From Gallionella sp. (lineage in GTDB: Bacteria; Pseudomonadota; Gammaproteobacteria; Burkholderiales; Gallionellaceae): a stretch of 40,283 bases of DNA. The stretch is taken from positions 1 to 40,283 of the forward strand of contig DAICZN010000089.1 in assembly GCA_027311105.1 (NCBI GenBank), given 5' to 3'. The translations under genes and the position numbers were made by a program. Numbering within the stretch: position 1 is the first letter of the stretch; each line of letters opens with the position of its first letter. The notes below the pieces were generated by a model. The model did no database searches and was not told where the DNA came from. It was given only the letters and a program-made list of their open reading frames with translations. Shown here in pieces: positions 10,141 to 22,612 of this stretch.

Positions 10141-10156
10141 TGGCACAACATTTGCT
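10141..10156 (+). promoter_or_regulatory. Sigma-54 (RpoN) -24/-12 promoter
   Basis: TGGCAC-AACAT-TTGCT is an exact match to the sigma-54 consensus TGGCAC-N5-TTGCW, with the invariant GG and GC separated by exactly ten bases. Transcription would start near 10167, leaving a leader of about 37 bases that carries the strong ribosome site GGGAGGA and leads to the ATG at 10204. An inverted repeat CAGGC-N6-GCCTG at 10047-10062, about 80-95 bases upstream of the -24 box, is a possible site for an enhancer-binding protein, but this is weak. Confidence 0.75.
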
Positions 10157-10203: not shown

Positions 10204-10383
10204 ATGGAAAACAGAACATCTGTAAAACTTGTCACTTATGCATTCGTAACATCTCTGCTGTTCCTGGGGTGTCCTGACAGGCGAAGCAGTGATGAGATCG
10301 CTGACGAGGCAAGCGCCGAAGATTTATCGATACATCAGGAATATGATGCCGACTCGATGCCCGCCTACTATGATCCGAGATAA
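10204..10383 (+). CDS. Small putative lipoprotein (59 aa)
   Basis: This 59-residue protein belongs to no family I recognise. The start is moved from the ORF-track position to the ATG at 10204 because GGGAGGA lies at ideal distance and the longer form would begin inside the promoter palindrome. A basic N-terminus and hydrophobic stretch (LVTYAFVTSLLFLGC) end at Cys23, which would be the lipidated residue; the -3 residue is Phe rather than Leu, so the lipobox is not ideal. The mature part is only 37 residues, very acidic (DEIADEASAED) and ends in PAYYDPR. The sigma-54 promoter and the palindrome upstream imply tight, signal-dependent expression. It could act in envelope stress or as a small signalling protein, but nothing in the sequence identifies a function. 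Confidence 0.6.
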   Translation: MENRTSVKLVTYAFVTSLLFLGCPDRRSSDEIADEASAEDLSIHQEYDADSMPAYYDPR

Positions 10384-11138: not shown

Positions 11139-11534
11139 TTAGGCAGCCACGAAGCCAGATAATTTGGATGCCTTCACATCGAAGGACGCCGTCGCACGAC
11201 ATCCCATTCGTCGGTTTTTGGTGCCGACCAGGCAATCAGCAAAATCGGCAGTTGTATCCTTCCACATGAAAATAGCCTCCTCAATGGCCGGCTCATCTTC
11301 AAATTGTATATCGGTCGCATCCAGTAAGCCGGAAATGGCCTCGATGATCTGATTCTTAGGCACGGCATATCGGCTACGTAACACCCATTCGGTTTCCATG
11401 AGAACCAACTGGTTTACGAAAACGCGGCGACCTGCTGCAACTTCACGCTTGATCAGCTTGCGTGCCTTCTCAAACTGGGTTTCGTCGTCCCGAACCAAAA
11501 AACGAACGAGGACGTTGGTGTCAATTCCAAGCAT
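11139..11534 (-). CDS. vapC: PIN-domain ribonuclease toxin, VapC family
   Basis: This 131-residue single PIN domain is predicted to be a metal-dependent endoribonuclease toxin. The acidic active-site residues are in place: Asp5 (LGIDTNVLVR), Glu47 (LMETEWVL), Asp97 (TADFADCLVG) and Asp119 (ATASFDVKA). Length and layout match typical VapC. The ATG overlaps the TAA of the antitoxin gene by one base (TAATG), so toxin translation is coupled to antitoxin translation. The likely target in this family is tRNA or rRNA, which cannot be specified here. Neighbouring DNA suggests an acquired module. Confidence 0.92.
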   Translation of the reverse strand: MLGIDTNVLVRFLVRDDETQFEKARKLIKREVAAGRRVFVNQLVLMETEWVLRSRYAVPKNQIIEAISGLLDATDIQFEDEPAIEEAIFMWKDTTADFADCLVGTKNRRMGCRATASFDVKASKLSGFVAA

Positions 11535-14436: not shown

Positions 14437-17400
14437 CTATTTTGGTGTGCCTCCGGATGGTATATCGGGCATGCGGCGCAAGTCCAGCGTGAACGGAAAA
14501 TCGCGATTGAGGCTTTCCGGCTGCACGCTCATAGCCCCCGGTGTGTGTCCATGATCCCGGAAACGCGCCGCGCTGCGCGCTTCGGCCTCGTTGGCATTGA
14601 CCGGGAATGTTTCATAACTGCGTCCGCCGGGATGAACCACATGGTAAGTGCAACCGCCGATTGAGCGGCCCGACCAGGTATCGACGATGTCGAACACCAG
14701 CGGCGAGTGTACCCCGATGGTGGGATGCAGCGCCGAGGGCGGCGCCCAGGCGCGGTAACGCACACCGGCGACGAATTCGCCTTTCACACCGGTGGGGTGC
14801 AGCGGCACGGGCCTGCCGTTGCAGGCGACTACATGACGGGAGTCTGTCATATTGCTCACCTTGACTTGCAGCCGCTCCAGCGACGAATCCACGTAACGCG
14901 CGGTCGCGCCCAGCTTGACTTCTTCGCCCAGCACGTTCCAGGGTTCGATCGCCGTGCGCAATTCCAGCGCTATGCCTTCGTAGACCACCGTGCCGTGGCG
15001 CGGAAAACGAAATTCCAGGAACGGCGCCAGCCATTCGAATTCAAATTTGTAACCGGCCGTCTTCAGGTCGCGCACGACATCCTGCATATCCTGCGCGACA
15101 AAATGGGGCAACAGGAAGCGGTCGTGCAATGCGGTGTCCCAGCGCACCAGCCCGCCCTTAAAGGGTTTCTTCCAGAAACGTGCGGCCAGCGTGCGCAGCA
15201 GCAACATCTGCACCAGGCTCATGCGCGCATGAGGCGGCATCTCGAAGGCCCGGAATTCCAGCAGCCCAAGCCGCCCGGCCGGGCTGTCGGGCGAATAAAG
15301 TTTATCGATGGAGAATTCGGCGCGGTGGGTGTTTCCAGTGAGATCGACCAGCAGGTTGCGTAGCAGCCTGTCAACCAGCCACGGCGTCAGCGACTCATCC
15401 CCTTCCTTGAGCCCCGCATCCATCTGTTCGAAGGCGATCTCGAGTTCGTAAAGGCTGTCGTGGCGCGCCTCGTCCACGCGCGGCGACTGGCTGGTCGGCC
15501 CAACGAACATCCCCGAGAACAGATAGGACAGCGCGGGATGGTTCTGCCAGTAGGCGATCAGGCTCCGGAGCAGGTCGGGGCGGCGCAGCATCGGGCTGTC
15601 GGCCGCGGTGGGCCCGCCTAGCGTGATGTGGTTGCCGCCGCCGGTGCCGGTGTGCCTCCCGTCCAGCATGAATTTTTCTGTGCCCAGCCGGGTCAGGCGG
15701 GCTTCTTCATACAGTATCGTGGTGTTCGCAACCAGTTCCTGCCAGGTTTTTGCGGGGTGGATGTTTACCTCGATCACGCCGGGGTCGGGCGTGACCTGAA
15801 AACTCTGCACGCGCGAATCGCGCGGCGGCGGATAGCCTTCCAGCCACAAGGGCATGTCCAGTGCCCTGGCGCTATGTTCGACCTCTTTTACCAGCGCCAG
15901 GTAATCTTCGATATGTGGCAACGGCGGCATGAATACATGCAGGCGCCCTTCCCTGGCTTCGACGCACAGCGCGGTGTGTATGATCTCCTTCGGCTTTTCA
16001 TCGTTGCGCGGTTTTTTCTTCTGCGCCACCTGTTCTGCACTGCTGTCCAGCGGCGGATGCTGGCCGAACGGATCGCGAATATGAACCGCCTCCCTTTCAT
16101 CCGGTGCGACCCAGGGCAATTCGTCCAGCGGCAGGCGATAACCCAGCGGCGAGTCTCCCGGCAACAAAAATATCTGTTCGCGCTTGAGCGGCCATGAACT
16201 GCTGAGCCATCTGTCCCGGCGTTTCTCGACCGCCTTCAGCGGCAGTACGTAACCGGCCTGCTTGCCCAGTCCCTGCGTCAGCAGCGCGGTGAGCCGGGTG
16301 CGCGCTTCCGGCGTCGCCAGGTCATGATGCAGGGGCTGGATGTTCAGCGGCAGGCGCTGTTCCGCCATCAGGTGATGCCAGACATCTTCGTAGGCGGGGA
16401 GCACGAATGAGTTGTCCAGCCCGAGCCGGCTCGCCAGGTCTTCGATGTAGCGTCTGGCATCCGCCTCGGTGTATCCGTAATCCCTGGTTTCGTCGGCGAC
16501 CAGGTCGATGTCGTTCCACATCGGTTTGCCGTCGCTGCGCCAGTAGCAGCCCAGCGCCCAGCGCGGCAGGGGTTCGCCGGGATACCATTTGCCCTGCCCG
16601 AAATGCAGCAAGCCGGTCGGCGCGAAACGCTGCTTGAGTTTTTGCACCAGCACGCCGGCAAGCTTGCGCTTGTCCTCGCCCAGCGCGGTCAGGTTCCATT
16701 CCGTGCCCTCCATGTCGTCTATGGAGACAAAAGTCGGCTCGCCGCCCATCGTCAGGCGCACGTCCGCGGCGATCAGCTCCTTGTCCACCTCGTTGCCCAG
16801 TGCATCGATGGCCTGCCATGCTGCGTCGGTGTATGGCCTGGTGACGCGCGGGTCTTCGTGGATGCGCGTCACGGTCATCGCAAAATCCAGCGTCGCCTGG
16901 CATACGTCCACCAGCCCGGTGATAGGCGCGGCGCTGATCGGTGCCGCCGTGCAGGCGAGCGGGATATGTCCTTCGCCGGCCATCAGTCCCGAAGTCGGAT
17001 CGAGCCCGACCCAGCCCGCACCCGGTATGAACGCCTCGGCCCATGCATGCAGGTCGGTGAAATCGCGTTCGGTTCCGGATGGCCCATCCAGCGACTTCAC
17101 GTCTGCGGCCAGCTGGATCAGGTAGCCCGAAGCGAAGCGCGCCGCGATGCCGAAACGGCGCAGGATATGCACCAGCAGCCAGGCCGAGTCGCGGCATGAA
17201 CCGCTATTCAGGGTCAGCGTCTGCTCGCAACTCTGCACACCCGGGTCCAGGCGCACCGTGTAGGCCACCCTGCCGTGCAGGCGCCGGTTCACCTCGACCA
17301 GAAAATCCGTCGTTGTCAATTTTTCCGGCAGCGCGCTGTTGATCCCGTCGAACAGTGCCAGGAATTGCGGACCGGCTTCATCGCTTTCGAGGAATGGCAC

Positions 17401-17742
17401 AAGCTCCTTGCGCAACTGTTCCGAGTAGGCAAACGGAAAATGCTCGGCATATTTTTCGACAAAAAAATCGAAAGGGTTGAACACGGTCATGTCCGCAACC
17501 AGATCCACCACGACCTCCAGTTCAGTGGCAGGCTCGGGGAACACCAGCCGGGCAATGTGGTTGCCGTACGGATCCTGCTGCCAGTTAATGTAGTGTTTGG
17601 CGGGCAGGACTTTCAGGGAGTAACTCAGGATGGGCGTGCGGCAGTGTGCCGCCGGGCGCAGCCGCACTTCATGCGGGGATATGCCTACCGGGCGGTCGAA
17701 TTGATAGCGGGTTTTATGATTGAGTGCGACACGTATCGTCAT
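14437..17742 (-). CDS. Transglutaminase-like protein with DUF2126
   Basis: This is a very large protein of 1101 residues, the usual length of this family. The first 100 residues form the bacterial transglutaminase N-terminal beta domain (RPVGISPHEVRLRP). A transglutaminase/papain-like core follows with the expected catalytic triad: Cys183 in NSGSCRDSAWLL, His232 in DLHAWAEAF and Asp248 in GLDPTSGL. From about residue 310 onward is DUF2126, which begins VRLTMGGEPTFVS and includes GTGGGNHITLGG. Such proteins co-occur with circularly permuted ATP-grasp, alpha-E and Anbu genes, as they do here, and are thought to cleave or form amide bonds on a peptide substrate. The gene is on the opposite strand to those partners but only about 1.6 kb away. 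Confidence 0.93.
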   Translation of the reverse strand: MTIRVALNHKTRYQFDRPVGISPHEVRLRPAAHCRTPILSYSLKVLPAKHYINWQQDPYGNHIARLVFPEPATELEVVVDLVADMTVFNPFDFFVEKYAEHFPFAYSEQLRKELVPFLESDEAGPQFLALFDGINSALPEKLTTTDFLVEVNRRLHGRVAYTVRLDPGVQSCEQTLTLNSGSCRDSAWLLVHILRRFGIAARFASGYLIQLAADVKSLDGPSGTERDFTDLHAWAEAFIPGAGWVGLDPTSGLMAGEGHIPLACTAAPISAAPITGLVDVCQATLDFAMTVTRIHEDPRVTRPYTDAAWQAIDALGNEVDKELIAADVRLTMGGEPTFVSIDDMEGTEWNLTALGEDKRKLAGVLVQKLKQRFAPTGLLHFGQGKWYPGEPLPRWALGCYWRSDGKPMWNDIDLVADETRDYGYTEADARRYIEDLASRLGLDNSFVLPAYEDVWHHLMAEQRLPLNIQPLHHDLATPEARTRLTALLTQGLGKQAGYVLPLKAVEKRRDRWLSSSWPLKREQIFLLPGDSPLGYRLPLDELPWVAPDEREAVHIRDPFGQHPPLDSSAEQVAQKKKPRNDEKPKEIIHTALCVEAREGRLHVFMPPLPHIEDYLALVKEVEHSARALDMPLWLEGYPPPRDSRVQSFQVTPDPGVIEVNIHPAKTWQELVANTTILYEEARLTRLGTEKFMLDGRHTGTGGGNHITLGGPTAADSPMLRRPDLLRSLIAYWQNHPALSYLFSGMFVGPTSQSPRVDEARHDSLYELEIAFEQMDAGLKEGDESLTPWLVDRLLRNLLVDLTGNTHRAEFSIDKLYSPDSPAGRLGLLEFRAFEMPPHARMSLVQMLLLRTLAARFWKKPFKGGLVRWDTALHDRFLLPHFVAQDMQDVVRDLKTAGYKFEFEWLAPFLEFRFPRHGTVVYEGIALELRTAIEPWNVLGEEVKLGATARYVDSSLERLQVKVSNMTDSRHVVACNGRPVPLHPTGVKGEFVAGVRYRAWAPPSALHPTIGVHSPLVFDIVDTWSGRSIGGCTYHVVHPGGRSYETFPVNANEAEARSAARFRDHGHTPGAMSVQPESLNRDFPFTLDLRRMPDIPSGGTPK

Positions 17743-17761: not shown

Positions 17762-18997
17762 TTATTCCAGTGACTCCCCGGCACCGGCTGCGGCAGTGAG
17801 CCTGGCCACGTTGTCTTTCGTGAAGAAGCCCTGAAAGTCGCCAAAACGTTGCACATACTCGATGATCAGTGCCGAGATCGGCGAGGCGGCGGAAAATATC
17901 TGCTTCAACCCGGCATCGCGTGAACCGACAACTTCCAGCAGGAAGCTCTTGCCCTGGCTGGCGATGGCATCGACCACAAAGTCGATGTTTTCCTTGCTGC
18001 CGCGCTCTCCGTCTTTCACCGACAGCGCGATGTGATGCAGGCGCGGGCCGAAATTGCGCACGAAAGTCTCGGTGGGGGATGGCAGTCCATCCAGATGGTT
18101 GACACAGTATGGCAGATTATTCGCTGTGAACACCTTGGCGGGGCTGAAGGATTCCGGCACCGGTCTGACACTCTTGCATACGTTGGTCGACGAGTTCTGG
18201 TCGGGAATGTTGTAACTGCCCCAGTAGTAATAACTGGACAAGGCCAGATATTCGAGCAGTGCCGCCTCGCGATTCTGGCTGTAGCCGCGGGTCGCGAGAT
18301 GGTCGACAGGCTGGATCAGATCGCCGATATCGAGCTTTCTCTGAAGCTCCTTGGCTTTTTCATAGGTATCTTGCGCATGAGGCATGATGCTGCAATTCCC
18401 CAGCGGGTGATAGACGCGCACCGCATTGGGTTCGCGCTCCATGTAGCCGACCACATTATGCGTATACGGCGAGGGTTTACTGAAACTGGCATTGGAAGGC
18501 AGGTCCAGGCCCGCCAGCGCATCGGCAGAGAAGAAGCGGAACTCCCGCGCCTGCTGCAGTTCCAGCACCCGCTCCCGGTCGCTGACCCAGAGTATCTCGC
18601 CCAGATAGCGACTATGGGGGCGCTGCGCGCCAGAGGGATGCAGGTCGTTCAGGTTACGGAAGATGTCATGGTAACCGGGGTCCTTGACTTCGCGCAGCAG
18701 GATGTCCGGAGAATTCATGTCGATGCGCAGGATATGCGTCAGGTGCCGCGGGCTGTCTAACGTCACCAGATAATGGTATGGTGTCATCAGCGCGAGTTCC
18801 GCGATGTACTCGATCGAGTTGCCCGGTTCGACCGTGATCATCAGCGCTTCTATGCCGCCTATCATATCTGTCAGGCCGCAACGATCCCGCTCTTCCAGCA
18901 GCCTCGGCAGATAGGTTTCGAAGAACTCGGAATTCAGCTTATCGCCGTTGCGCGGCAGTCCGGTTGATTTCAGTTTTGCAGCGTCTGGATAGTTCAT
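17762..18997 (-). CDS. HPPD-like two-domain VOC metalloprotein of unknown function
   Basis: This 411-residue protein looks like a distant relative of 4-hydroxyphenylpyruvate dioxygenase. The C-terminal half keeps all three expected iron ligands: His233 in QPVDHLATR, His322 in RLHHIALSVKD and Glu380 in LIIEYVQRFGD. The closing stretch QRFGDFQGFFTKDNVARL and the KQIFSA phrase are close to HPPD signatures. The N-terminal half is divergent and about 50 residues longer than in true HPPD, and no tyrosine-catabolism genes are nearby. It lies 19 bp upstream of the DUF2126 gene and next to the ATP-grasp/Anbu unit, so a role in oxidising a product of that system is inferred. It might act on a 2-oxo acid substrate. 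Confidence 0.8.
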   Translation of the reverse strand: MNYPDAAKLKSTGLPRNGDKLNSEFFETYLPRLLEERDRCGLTDMIGGIEALMITVEPGNSIEYIAELALMTPYHYLVTLDSPRHLTHILRIDMNSPDILLREVKDPGYHDIFRNLNDLHPSGAQRPHSRYLGEILWVSDRERVLELQQAREFRFFSADALAGLDLPSNASFSKPSPYTHNVVGYMEREPNAVRVYHPLGNCSIMPHAQDTYEKAKELQRKLDIGDLIQPVDHLATRGYSQNREAALLEYLALSSYYYWGSYNIPDQNSSTNVCKSVRPVPESFSPAKVFTANNLPYCVNHLDGLPSPTETFVRNFGPRLHHIALSVKDGERGSKENIDFVVDAIASQGKSFLLEVVGSRDAGLKQIFSAASPISALIIEYVQRFGDFQGFFTKDNVARLTAAAGAGESLE

Positions 18998-19167
18998 GCA
19001 GGACTTCGCTTGAGATAGGGGTCGGGCAGAATCAGGCGAACACTTCGAGCAACCTTGCCGTCATATGGCGGGCAGACCAATTCATTGCCGTGGTATGACT
19101 CGTCGATTACATTTTGTGCATTCATACTGCGAAGGTCCGGTAGATTTCCAAAAGCTCCACACGACAT
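18994..19167 (-). CDS. Possible small ORF overlapping the HPPD-like gene start
   Basis: Reading the minus strand shows a 57-codon ORF too short for the supplied track (an inner ATG at 19125 gives 43 codons). Its TGA overlaps the HPPD-like ATG as ATGA, the classic arrangement of translational coupling. The product ends LVCPPYDGKVARSVRLILPDP plus seven residues, a balanced composition unlike random sequence. No good ribosome site precedes either ATG. It could be a small coupled protein, a leader peptide, or the 3' remnant of a lost gene. It matches no family I know. Confidence 0.35.
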   Translation of the reverse strand: MSCGAFGNLPDLRSMNAQNVIDESYHGNELVCPPYDGKVARSVRLILPDPYLKRSPA

Positions 19168-19310
19168 CAGCAAATATTGAGCCAGTCACCCGCGAGTGGC
19201 AACCATCATTCAGCACCACCAGTCCGGAACCGGTATAGCCTTGAATTTGGTCGCCCGGGGAAAGCACGGGCTGTCTAGTTTGGGACCGTGCCGGGGTTTC
19301 GATAATTCAG

Positions 19311-19326
19311 TGGCATAGTATTCGCT
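19311..19326 (+). promoter_or_regulatory. Possible sigma-54 promoter of the ATP-grasp operon
   Basis: TGGCAT-AGTAT-TCGCT keeps the essential GG and GC at the exact ten-base spacing of sigma-54 promoters, with two mismatches to the extended consensus. The predicted start near 19337 leaves a leader of about 23 bases containing AAAGGGA before the ATG at 19360. A sigma-70 alternative upstream (TTGGGA and GATAAT with a 15-base spacer) is poorer. Confidence 0.35.
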
Positions 19327-19359
19327 TTAGTTCCATTAGAAAAACCAAAGGGACGCATT

Positions 19360-20811
19360 ATGGAACTCGCTTCTTCAGAATACGCCAGCAATACCGCCTA
19401 CGATGAACTGCTGGACCGCAAGCTGCTGCCGCGATCTACCGCCCAGCCGTTGTTCGATTACCTGAACTCCCTGGACCCGAGCGAACTGGCGGCACGCCAT
19501 CAGGCGGTGGACGCGACGATCATGGCGATGGGCATCACCTTCACGATCTACAGCGAGTCCGGCAACATCGACCGCGCATGGCCGTTCGATCCCATCCCGC
19601 GGGTCATGGCACGCAGTGAATGGGACTGGGTACAAGCCGGACTAAAACAGCGTCTGACCGCACTGAATCTGTTCATCAATGACCTGTACAACGAACAGAA
19701 TATCATCAGGGACGGCGTGTTTCCGGCAGAAGTGCTGGAAGGGTCGGGAAATTTCCGGCCCCAATGCATCGGCGTCACGCCCCGCTTTGGGATCTGGGCC
19801 CACATTTGCGGCACCGACCTGGTGCGTGACAGCGACGGGACCGTGTATGTACTTGAAGACAATCTGCGCGTTCCTTCCGGCGTGTCGTATATGCTGGAAA
19901 ACCGCCAGGTCATGAAGCGTATATTCCCCGAAGTATTCCGCACCTCCCATATCCTGCCCGTGGATGACTACCCCATGCAGCTCTACCAGACACTGGCAGC
20001 CCTGTCTCCCCGTCCCGGCGACCATCCGGTCATCGCGGTACTCACCCCGGGCATCTATAACTCGGCGTATTTCGAGCACAGTTATCTGGCCCAGCAGATG
20101 GGTGCATACCTTGTGGAAGGGTCGGATCTGCTGGTGGGCAAAGACGATGTCGTGTACATGAAAAGTATCGAAGGCCTGGAGCGCGTTGATGTGATCTACC
20201 GGCGCATCGACGATGAGTTTCTCGATCCGGAAGTATTCAATCCGGATTCCGTTCTGGGCGTGCGCGGTCTGATGCGGGCCTGGCGCAACGGCAATGTGGG
20301 CATTGCCAATGCGCCCGGCGCCGGCGTGGCGGACGACAAGGTGGTATACGCTTTTGTGCCGCAGATCATCCGCTACTATTTGGGTCAGGATGCCATCCTT
20401 GCCAACGTTCCGAGTTATCTGTGCATGTACGAAGACCAGCGCGAGCATGTGCTGAACAATCTGGACAAGCTGGTCGTCAAGCCGGCCAACGAATCTGGAG
20501 GTTACGGCATGCTGATCGGTCCGCGCGCCACACCCCAGGAACGCGCAAAATTCGCCGAGCTGATACGCGCCAATCCGAGAAATTACATGGCGCAGCCCAC
20601 ACTCGACATCTCCACCGCGCCCACTCTGGTGGACGGACAGCTGGCTCCGCGCCATCTGGATTTGCGCCCCTTCGTGTTGCAGGCGGACAAGCTTTACGCC
20701 ACCACCGGCGGATTGACACGGGTAGCCTTGCGCAAAGGTTCTCTGGTGGTCAATTCTTCGCAGGGGGGCGGCAGCAAGGACACCTGGATAGTCGAAGACG
20801 GGGTTGCCTGA
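19360..20811 (+). CDS. Circularly permuted ATP-grasp protein (COG2308 type)
   Basis: This 483-residue protein belongs to the circularly permuted ATP-grasp family (formerly DUF404/DUF407). Such enzymes are predicted to form amide bonds through an acyl-phosphate made from ATP. Characteristic stretches are GIWAHICGTDLVRDSDG with VYVLEDNLRVPSGVSYMLEN (about residues 147-185), the nucleotide-binding DKLVVKPANESGGYGM (about 368-383), and FVLQADKLYATTGGLTRVAL near the C-terminus. The ATG has a good AAAGGGA site. Its TGA overlaps the ATG of the alpha-E gene by one base. It starts the plus-strand unit ATP-grasp, alpha-E, Anbu, and diverges from the HPPD-like gene. Confidence 0.93.
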   Translation: MELASSEYASNTAYDELLDRKLLPRSTAQPLFDYLNSLDPSELAARHQAVDATIMAMGITFTIYSESGNIDRAWPFDPIPRVMARSEWDWVQAGLKQRLTALNLFINDLYNEQNIIRDGVFPAEVLEGSGNFRPQCIGVTPRFGIWAHICGTDLVRDSDGTVYVLEDNLRVPSGVSYMLENRQVMKRIFPEVFRTSHILPVDDYPMQLYQTLAALSPRPGDHPVIAVLTPGIYNSAYFEHSYLAQQMGAYLVEGSDLLVGKDDVVYMKSIEGLERVDVIYRRIDDEFLDPEVFNPDSVLGVRGLMRAWRNGNVGIANAPGAGVADDKVVYAFVPQIIRYYLGQDAILANVPSYLCMYEDQREHVLNNLDKLVVKPANESGGYGMLIGPRATPQERAKFAELIRANPRNYMAQPTLDISTAPTLVDGQLAPRHLDLRPFVLQADKLYATTGGLTRVALRKGSLVVNSSQGGGSKDTWIVEDGVA

Positions 20812-21797
20812 TGCTGGCCCGTGTAGCGGAAAATCTGTACTGGATGGCGCGCTATCTGGAAAGAACCGAAAATACCGCGCGTCTGATCAACAGCACCACG
20901 CATGTCCTGCTCGACCTGCCTCTCGGCGCTGCTTTCGGCTGGGCCAACCTGATCGAAATCGCCGGTCTGGATAACATGTTCCACCGGCATTATCCGGACG
21001 CCAATGAAGAGGCCATCATGTGCTTCCTGATCGAGGATGACCGGAACCCGAGCTCGATTCTGTCCTGCGTGCAATATGCCCGTGAGAACACCCGCACGCT
21101 GCGCGAGGAACTTCCTGCCGAAATGTGGGAACGCATCAACAGCCTGTTTCTGTATGTCCGGAAAAATGCCGCCACCGCCTGCCGCAGCAGGCGCGACCGC
21201 TACATGGTGCTGAACAGTGTCATCGAACAGCGTCATGCCATCGTCGGCCTGTTTTCGGGCACGATGGGGCACGACCTCGCCTACCAGATCATCAAGCTGG
21301 GCCGCAACATTGAACGCGCCGACATGACCACCCGCATTCTCGATCTCAATTCGGCGGTTCAGCTGCCGCAGGATAGCGTATTGCATGAGTCCATCATGGA
21401 GCGGATCTGGATGAGCACGCTGAACTCATTATCCGCTTACCAGGCTTACCGCCATCTGGTCAGCATGCATGTGCGCAGCAGGGAAGTGATCAACTTTCTG
21501 ATCGGCGACATACGCTTCCCGCGCAGCGTCGAGCACTGTTTGTCTGAAATAGAGTCCTGCCTCAAGTTGATGCCAAAATCGCAGCATCTGCAGAATATCG
21601 TCGCCCAGCTGCGGAACAAGATCTCACAACGCCATACCGGAGAACTCGGAGCCGTTGCGCTGCACGAATATCTGGATCTGTTGCAGGCCGAGCTGGGCAA
21701 AATTCACGATTTGTTGATGTACCATTACTTCCACGCATATCGAGTGGAACTTCCTTCCGCGGGGCCAACCCTGACAGAATCGGGATTTGCCGAGTGA
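20811..21797 (+). CDS. Alpha-E domain protein (COG2307 type)
   Basis: This 328-residue, almost entirely helical protein belongs to the alpha-E superfamily (DUF403). It pairs with circularly permuted ATP-grasp enzymes and is thought to assist the ligase reaction or bind its product. The family motif is at the very start (ENLYWMARYLERTENTAR) and is echoed mid-protein (KLGRNIERADMTTRILDL). The ORF track begins this frame at 20421, but that extension lies inside the ATP-grasp gene. The true start is the ATG at 20811, overlapping the upstream stop as TGATG, which implies coupled translation and matched amounts of the two proteins. Confidence 0.93.
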   Translation: MLARVAENLYWMARYLERTENTARLINSTTHVLLDLPLGAAFGWANLIEIAGLDNMFHRHYPDANEEAIMCFLIEDDRNPSSILSCVQYARENTRTLREELPAEMWERINSLFLYVRKNAATACRSRRDRYMVLNSVIEQRHAIVGLFSGTMGHDLAYQIIKLGRNIERADMTTRILDLNSAVQLPQDSVLHESIMERIWMSTLNSLSAYQAYRHLVSMHVRSREVINFLIGDIRFPRSVEHCLSEIESCLKLMPKSQHLQNIVAQLRNKISQRHTGELGAVALHEYLDLLQAELGKIHDLLMYHYFHAYRVELPSAGPTLTESGFAE

Positions 21798-21874: not shown

Positions 21875-22612
21875 ATGACTTACTGCGTTGCCATCAACAC
21901 CGATCAGGGGCTGGTATTCTGCTCGGACTCCCGCACCAACGGGGGGCTCGACAATATTTCCGTCTATTCAAAGATGCATACTTTTGTGTGGCCCGGCGAA
22001 CGCACATTCACTTTGCTTTCCGGGGGTAATCTGGCCACCACCCAGTCCGTGGTGAAGCATCTGTGGAGTGATATCGAGAGTGCGGCAGCGGTGAATCTGC
22101 GCAACGTCGCCAATATGCTGAAGGCTTCAGACTATATTGCCGCCATCAGCTCCAGTGTGCAGAAACAGCATACCGACCGCGACACCGCCAGCACGAACTT
22201 TGAGGCGACTTTCATCTTTGGCGGCCAAATCGGCACCGAACGCCCGGAGACCATGCTGATTTATCCCCAGGGTAACTACATACACGAGTCTGAGGAACAT
22301 CCCTTCCTGCAGATCGGTGAAGTCAAATATGGCAAACCCATCCTCGACCGGGTCATCAAGCGCACCACACCATTGGCTGATGCCGCGCGCTGCGCGCTGG
22401 TGTCGATGAACTCCACGGTTCGCAGCAACCTGACAGTCGGTCCGCCGATCGATTTGCTGATTTATGAAAAGGACCGCCTTGATTTCGGCCAACGCTTAAC
22501 CATGACCGAAAACGACCCGTTTTCGAAACAGATTTCCGATTCATGGAGTCAGGGTCTGGTTCAGGCACTGGAAAACCTGCCGCGCTTTACGTGGGAGCAA
22601 CAGCCAACCTAA
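21875..22612 (+). CDS. Anbu, proteasome-like peptidase
   Basis: This 245-residue protein is a member of the Anbu (ancestral beta-subunit) branch of Ntn-hydrolases, related to HslV and proteasome beta-subunits. After removal of Met1 the nucleophile is Thr2 ([24 protein letters not shown]). The supporting Asp18 (SDSR) and Lys33 (YSKMH) sit at proteasome-like positions. Family members assemble into open helical or ring-like particles rather than closed barrels. Unlike HslV, no ATPase partner (HslU) is adjacent. The gene follows the alpha-E gene by 77 bp. Co-occurrence with ATP-grasp, alpha-E and transglutaminase genes is the recurring genomic context for Anbu, suggesting it cleaves a product of those enzymes. 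Confidence 0.92.

Follow-up and report, generated by a model that had tools for sequence, protein, structure and literature searches.

The Anbu cluster is widespread and brings together a candidate ancestor of the proteasome and two types of amide-bond-forming enzymes; we know of no substrate for it. Because Iyer et al. 2009, reportedly the first analysis of the cluster, lay outside our full-text literature search, which found no link between a dioxygenase and the Anbu cluster, priority for such a link is not certain. HglS, a 2-oxoadipate dioxygenase (DUF1338, PF07063), is an iron-dependent 2-oxo acid enzyme of the vicinal-oxygen-chelate (VOC) fold. Two further enzymes are 4-hydroxyphenylpyruvate dioxygenase (HPPD), which carries out a ring hydroxylation with migration, and 4-hydroxymandelate synthase (HMS), which carries out a benzylic hydroxylation (PMC13111500). 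Human mitochondria contain a paralogue of HPPD, HPDL, which likewise has a 2-His-1-Glu site but functions outside the breakdown of tyrosine (PMC13111500). The Anbu operon as described comprises ATP-grasp, Alpha-E, transglutaminase and Anbu genes (PMC6376114, PMC5666114), purified Anbu showed no peptidase activity (PMC6376114), and a dioxygenase is mentioned in neither of these two papers (PMC6376114, PMC5666114). Here we analyse a window of 40,283 nucleotides from Gallionella sp. (assembly GCA_027311105.1, contig DAICZN010000089.1) in which an HPPD-like gene, HPPDL, lies among Anbu-cluster genes.

Results

The HPPDL gene and the Anbu cluster of the window

HPPDL is an open reading frame of 411 codons on the minus strand, running from 18997 to 17762. 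From its translation, its invariant residues and fold searches, the 411-residue product is a two-domain VOC protein with His233, His322 and Glu380 as predicted iron ligands. Relative to the nearest homolog, 10, 6 and 37% of codon positions 1, 2 and 3 differ; third positions are thus about four times as variable as first positions, as expected of a real gene under selection, and purifying selection is clear. A scan of the genome collection found about 293 loci encoding HPPDL, 80 of which were kept, in Gallionellaceae, Sulfuriferula, Halothiobacillus, Methylococcales, Methylophilaceae, Ectothiorhodospiraceae and others; no relatives were found in viral contigs or plasmids. In the alignment set (49 sequences) the other members are 63-88% identical to the window protein. 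The family is narrow, has had no name until now and falls within the HPPD/HMS branch of the VOC fold.

After a gap of 19 nt, HPPDL is followed in the same direction by the gene for an 1101-residue transglutaminase-DUF2126 protein (14437-17742, minus strand; PF09899 E=0, PF08379, PF01841), with which it probably forms an operon. This unit is divergent from three genes on the plus strand, from which it is separated by an intergenic promoter region of 362 bp (18998-19359), as defined by the ORF positions and the sequence. The first encodes a circularly permuted ATP-grasp protein of the COG2308 type (19360-20811; PF14403 E=2e-163). The second encodes an Alpha-E protein (20811-21797; PF04168 E=6e-80 over ORF residues 131-437), whose start is approximate because the ORF opens at 20421 and the domain starts at about 20811. 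The third encodes Anbu, an ancestral proteasome-beta-like protein of 245 residues (21875-22612), which phmmer matched to PDB entries 5loy, 5nyw and 5nyj with E values down to 8e-71 (5loy). Thr1, Asp17 and Lys32, the catalytic positions given in PMC6376114, are in place. The preliminary description of this DNA gave neither the strand of HPPDL nor the Anbu gene. Elsewhere in the window, an ORF at 11139-11534 (minus strand; MLGIDTNVLVRFLVRDDE...) resembles, by eye, a PIN-domain toxin of the VapC type.

Sequence relationships and predicted fold

How closely is HPPDL related to HPPD? The window protein had no match in Pfam, NCBIfam or PHROGs, and a sequence comparison with the PDB returned nothing significant. 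An HPPD HMM scored it at 7.0 bits and its homologs at 3.6 (lowest) to 15.9 bits, whereas 2000 shuffles of the window protein reached 4.6 bits at most and reversed sequences stayed below 0. Judged by these scores, the resemblance to HPPD exceeds chance and the sequence homology is weak. When the 49 members were scanned singly, none rose above a curated cut-off; five matched TIGR01263 (HPPD) weakly (best E 0.017), the window protein not among them, 13 matched Glyoxalase_4 (E 0.033), and the VOC family PRK11700/YecM was matched by five members each. The commonest weak matches fell mainly within one superfamily, with scattered chance families alongside. With hhalign, the full HPPDL profile gave no significant alignment to that of HPPD and an E value of 0.25 against HglS/DUF1338 (PF07063), to which HPPDL also had no Pfam match; these profile-profile comparisons are uninformative because the HPPDL family is too uniform.

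Structure prediction bore out the kinship with HPPD that the preliminary description had claimed, in that the predicted fold matches both HPPD and HMS. A model built from the family alone, without HPPD rows, was of moderate confidence (pLDDT 64), and all of its 50 best PDB matches in Foldseek, which include a TIM-barrel/HPPD fusion, were HPPD or HMS (E down to 2e-9). A model built with HPPD rows, which are the reason that it is not independent, reached a pLDDT of 86.4 and a pTM of 0.88; its 50 best PDB matches were again HPPD or HMS (E 8e-16; TM 0.68-0.74 to HMS). Both models thus predict a two-domain VOC fold of the HPPD/HMS type. In the mixed model the C-terminal half consists of two beta-alpha-beta-beta-beta modules, with His233 on beta1 (228-237), His322 on beta1' (319-327) and Glu380 on the last strand (378-384), so that the triad residues, by strand position in the model, are on the canonical VOC strands. 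At this level of detail the model gave no sign of three residues that fail to converge, the outcome that would have spoken against the preliminary description.

The active site

The triad, proposed beforehand at these same residues, is invariant in the 49 sequences, and MAFFT aligned it, unforced, with the iron ligands of HPPD. The closing segment EYVQRFGDFQGFFTKDN likewise matches HPPD FEIIQRKGD-QGFGEGN, and the N-terminal half is as divergent as had been stated. MAFFT also pairs Ser285, Asn300, Gln366, Phe368 and Asn396 of HPPDL with HPPD residues; these would be the equivalents of AtHPPD Ser267, Asn282, Gln379, Phe381 and Asn423 (residue numbers and roles from PMC6750108), the AtHPPD residues having been mapped onto bacterial HPPD by motif spacing. 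Other positions differ: AtHPPD Gln293 and Gln307 correspond to Pro308 and His321, both invariant in the 49 sequences, and in the alignment Phe392 and Phe424 correspond to Ile378 and Val397. The pattern of the aligned residues therefore suggests a pocket that has kept the side facing the iron and the 2-oxo acid and has changed on its aromatic side. In AtHPPD, efficiency falls ~3722-fold in the Q293A mutant and ~99-fold for Gln307 (PMC6750108). Because these two critical glutamines are replaced, HPPDL is unlikely to form homogentisate.

The N-terminal domain of HPPDL contains invariant His85 and His88 (HxTHxLR, residues 85-91), which, on their conservation, could mark a second functional site; no catalytic function has been reported for the N-terminal domain of HPPD (PMC6750108).

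Tyrosine catabolism

A sample of 101 related genomes contained nine HPPDL carriers and 92 non-carriers. HPPD and HmgA (homogentisate dioxygenase, TIGR01015) were each found in none of the nine carriers, of which the window's own genome is ~65% complete and the others 95-100%. This places HPPDL outside tyrosine catabolism, as the preliminary description had held, and the setting in tyrosine catabolism that would have told against that description did not appear. Its further statement that no tyrosine-degradation gene is nearby agrees with our scan of part of the window's ORFs, among whose proteins none was recognised. A role for HPPDL as an enzyme of tyrosine catabolism is rejected because the carriers lack HPPD and HmgA. 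In a genome of the same genus with 7% contamination, a 177-residue ORF (L116, G054:C30:3213-3482) matches the middle of TIGR01263 (158-254, E 1e-11); it may be contaminating sequence or a VOC protein of half size.

Linkage and co-occurrence with Anbu-cluster genes

Is the association with a transglutaminase-DUF2126 protein and a ligase/protease system, noted earlier for this window, a general one? It is conserved beyond the window and reaches the whole Anbu cluster. Genes of the cluster, counted as circularly permuted ATP-grasp, Alpha-E, transglutaminase, transglutaminase-DUF2126 and Anbu protease, lie near HPPDL in 42 of the 45 loci whose flanks reach 9 kb or more on either side. Across the 80 loci, where those of one genus are not independent of each other, the neighbour families were ATP-grasp/Alpha-E (61), Anbu (43), transglutaminase-DUF2126 (43) and transglutaminase (42), and every other family clustered occurred at 10 loci or fewer. 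The transglutaminase family and a fused ATP-grasp-Alpha-E family were identified among these neighbours.

The genes occur in at least five arrangements. For example, methanotrophs and Sulfuriferula have the order ATP-grasp, Alpha-E, Anbu, DUF2126, HPPDL, and Methylotenera has ATP-grasp, Alpha-E, transglutaminase, HPPDL, Anbu. In some Gallionellaceae-like genomes HPPDL and Anbu diverge from each other; in Ectothiorhodospiraceae HPPDL lies between Alpha-E and DUF2126, and in Methylophilus it faces a set of transglutaminase, fused ATP-grasp and DUF2126 genes. Several loci from the same genus (L147, L148, L149 and L150) each contain two Anbu paralogues, about 65% and about 41-46% identical to the window Anbu; the copy with ~65% identity adjoins HPPDL or its empty site.

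In the sample of 101 related genomes, DUF2126 is present in all nine HPPDL carriers and in 17 of the 92 non-carriers (p=1.5e-6). Similarly, in 78 genomes of another order it is present in four of five carriers, one carrier being without it, and in none of 73 non-carriers (p=3.5e-6). HPPDL is unlinked to the cluster in three of the 45 full-flank loci and in three genomes of the second order. Six unlinked loci that were examined had no neighbours in common close to HPPDL. The close relative G008 keeps ATP-grasp, Alpha-E and Anbu and lacks both HPPDL and DUF2126; in the close relative G033 the cluster is kept and, at the syntenic position, HPPDL is the one gene lost. HPPDL is therefore not essential to the Anbu cluster, and this pattern of presence and absence makes it an optional module whose closest tie is to DUF2126. 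The sole Anbu-like match in G006 (25%) is on another contig and may not be Anbu.

Promoter signals

Nitrogen limitation is reported to induce the Anbu cluster of P. putida (PMC8050072 Table 2; PMC7801951), and for this reason we searched for sigma-54 sites of the -24/-12 type. The divergent region contains two. One, TGGCTCAATATTTGCT (19169-19184, minus strand), has one mismatch and faces HPPDL; the other, TGGCATAGTATTCGCT (19311-19326, plus strand), has two mismatches, keeps GG/GC and lies 33 bp before the ATP-grasp start. The pair was equalled in 1 of 5000 base shuffles of the 362-bp region. Such sites, counted with up to two mismatches and with related loci entering more than once, occur upstream of 16 of 34 leading HPPDL genes, 31 of 41 leading ATP-grasp genes and 12 of 20 DUF2126 genes, against 25 of 307 controls. 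From these motifs, HPPDL probably shares the sigma-54 and nitrogen-starvation control of the Anbu cluster. The P. putida cluster is also induced in an rpoN mutant (PMC7801951), so strict sigma-54 dependence does not fit there. The divergent region contained no more sigma-70-type promoters or terminators than expected by chance, and a search of it for inverted repeats gave none.

Elsewhere in the window, an exact sigma-54 consensus, TGGCACAACATTTGCT (0 mismatches; 10141-10156, plus strand), lies 47 bp before a small ORF (10204-10383, plus strand) whose product is lipoprotein-like (MENRTSVKLVTYAFVTSLLFLGCPDRR...).

Discussion

What does an HPPD-like protein contribute to the Anbu cluster? We propose, with a probability of roughly 0.6, that HPPDL is a family of Fe(II) 2-oxo-acid oxygenases of the HPPD/HMS type, accessory to the nitrogen-starvation Anbu cluster, with a substrate other than 4-hydroxyphenylpyruvate. 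Because HPPDL is inherited with the cluster, lies beside it and has promoter signals in common with it, we infer that this ligase/protease system probably includes an unrecognised oxidation step contributed by HPPDL. A narrower reading, which we put forward tentatively and at somewhat less than even odds, is that HPPDL acts as an Fe(II) oxygenase dedicated to making or modifying a molecule that the ATP-grasp/Alpha-E/transglutaminase/Anbu system handles.

If the metal, the use of a 2-oxo acid, the substrate and the place in a pathway are as we infer, HPPDL would bind a 2-oxo acid bidentately at the Fe(II) of its 2-His-1-Glu site, decarboxylate it with O2 to give a ferryl species, and use this to hydroxylate that same molecule in the manner of HPPD and HMS. 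The product would either serve the ATP-grasp ligase as a building block or be a compound released by the cluster and then oxidised, and HPPDL would thus supply or modify a molecule of the Anbu system under nitrogen starvation.

It is conceivable, though we consider it unlikely, that HPPDL is instead a nitrogen-scavenging enzyme that merely shares the regulon. Its task would then be to dispose oxidatively of one of the 2-oxo acids that arise when amino acids give up their nitrogen under nitrogen starvation, and its chemistry would be unconnected with the ligase products. That nitrogen limitation induces the Anbu cluster would suit such a role, as would the unlinked copies in some genomes and the shared sigma-54-type sites, which are also present ahead of HPPDL genes that have a promoter to themselves. 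However, linkage maintained through several rearrangements and the tracking of DUF2126 in two groups exceed what a shared regulator needs, and no other family of neighbours accompanies HPPDL at more than 10 of the 80 loci.

That HPPDL is a true HPPD or HMS with 4-hydroxyphenylpyruvate as its substrate is improbable. The fold, the triad and several identical second-sphere residues agree with this, and HMS entries are structurally nearest by TM-score; an HMS-type product may be formed. The exchange of Gln293 and Gln307 for invariant Pro308 and His321 and of Phe392 and Phe424 for Ile378 and Val397 stands against it, as does the lack of HmgA in carriers. It is equally improbable that HPPDL uses its metal non-oxidatively (as an isomerase or hydrolase) or serves the cluster as a structural or regulatory protein, since, although VOC folds include epimerases and lyases and the weak profile matches include Glyoxalase_4 and YecM/PRK11700, the His-His-Glu triad together with conserved Gln366, Phe368, Ser285 and Asn300 is the set of an HPPD-type oxygenase.

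A linked small-molecule oxygenase with recognisable chemistry is a tractable entry to the Anbu system, as its substrate or product would suggest what that system conjugates. If the reading of HPPDL as a dedicated oxygenase is true, the Anbu system would be an oxidative pathway of peptide or metabolite conjugation, beyond a protein-tagging protease, and the HPPDL product would be a handle on its substrate.

Finally, HPPDL can be set beside the systems already described. With HMS (PDB 2r5v, 3zgj) it shares the predicted fold (TM up to 0.74), the triad and elements of the 2-oxo acid pocket; it differs in its identity of ~14% in the structural alignment, its genomic setting and its longer N-terminal domain. 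With HPPD (TIGR01263) it shares the fold, the triad and the putative equivalents of Ser267, Asn282, Gln379, Phe381 and Asn423. Unlike HPPD, it lacks, in the stretch from the second His to the Glu, a segment of ~30 residues (TPDTYYE...ILIDG), has Pro for Gln293 and His for Gln307, scores below the curated cut-off and occurs in carriers without the partner HmgA. With HPPDL, the HPPD/HMS group, whose fold is a major herbicide target, gains a further, unnamed family. To HglS it has no profile relationship (hhalign E 0.25). HPDL is similar by description, as a 2-His-1-Glu paralogue of HPPD outside tyrosine breakdown, whereas HPPDL comes from bacteria and is linked to a gene cluster. The component types described for the Anbu operon occur around HPPDL, and to that operon HPPDL is an extra, optional component.
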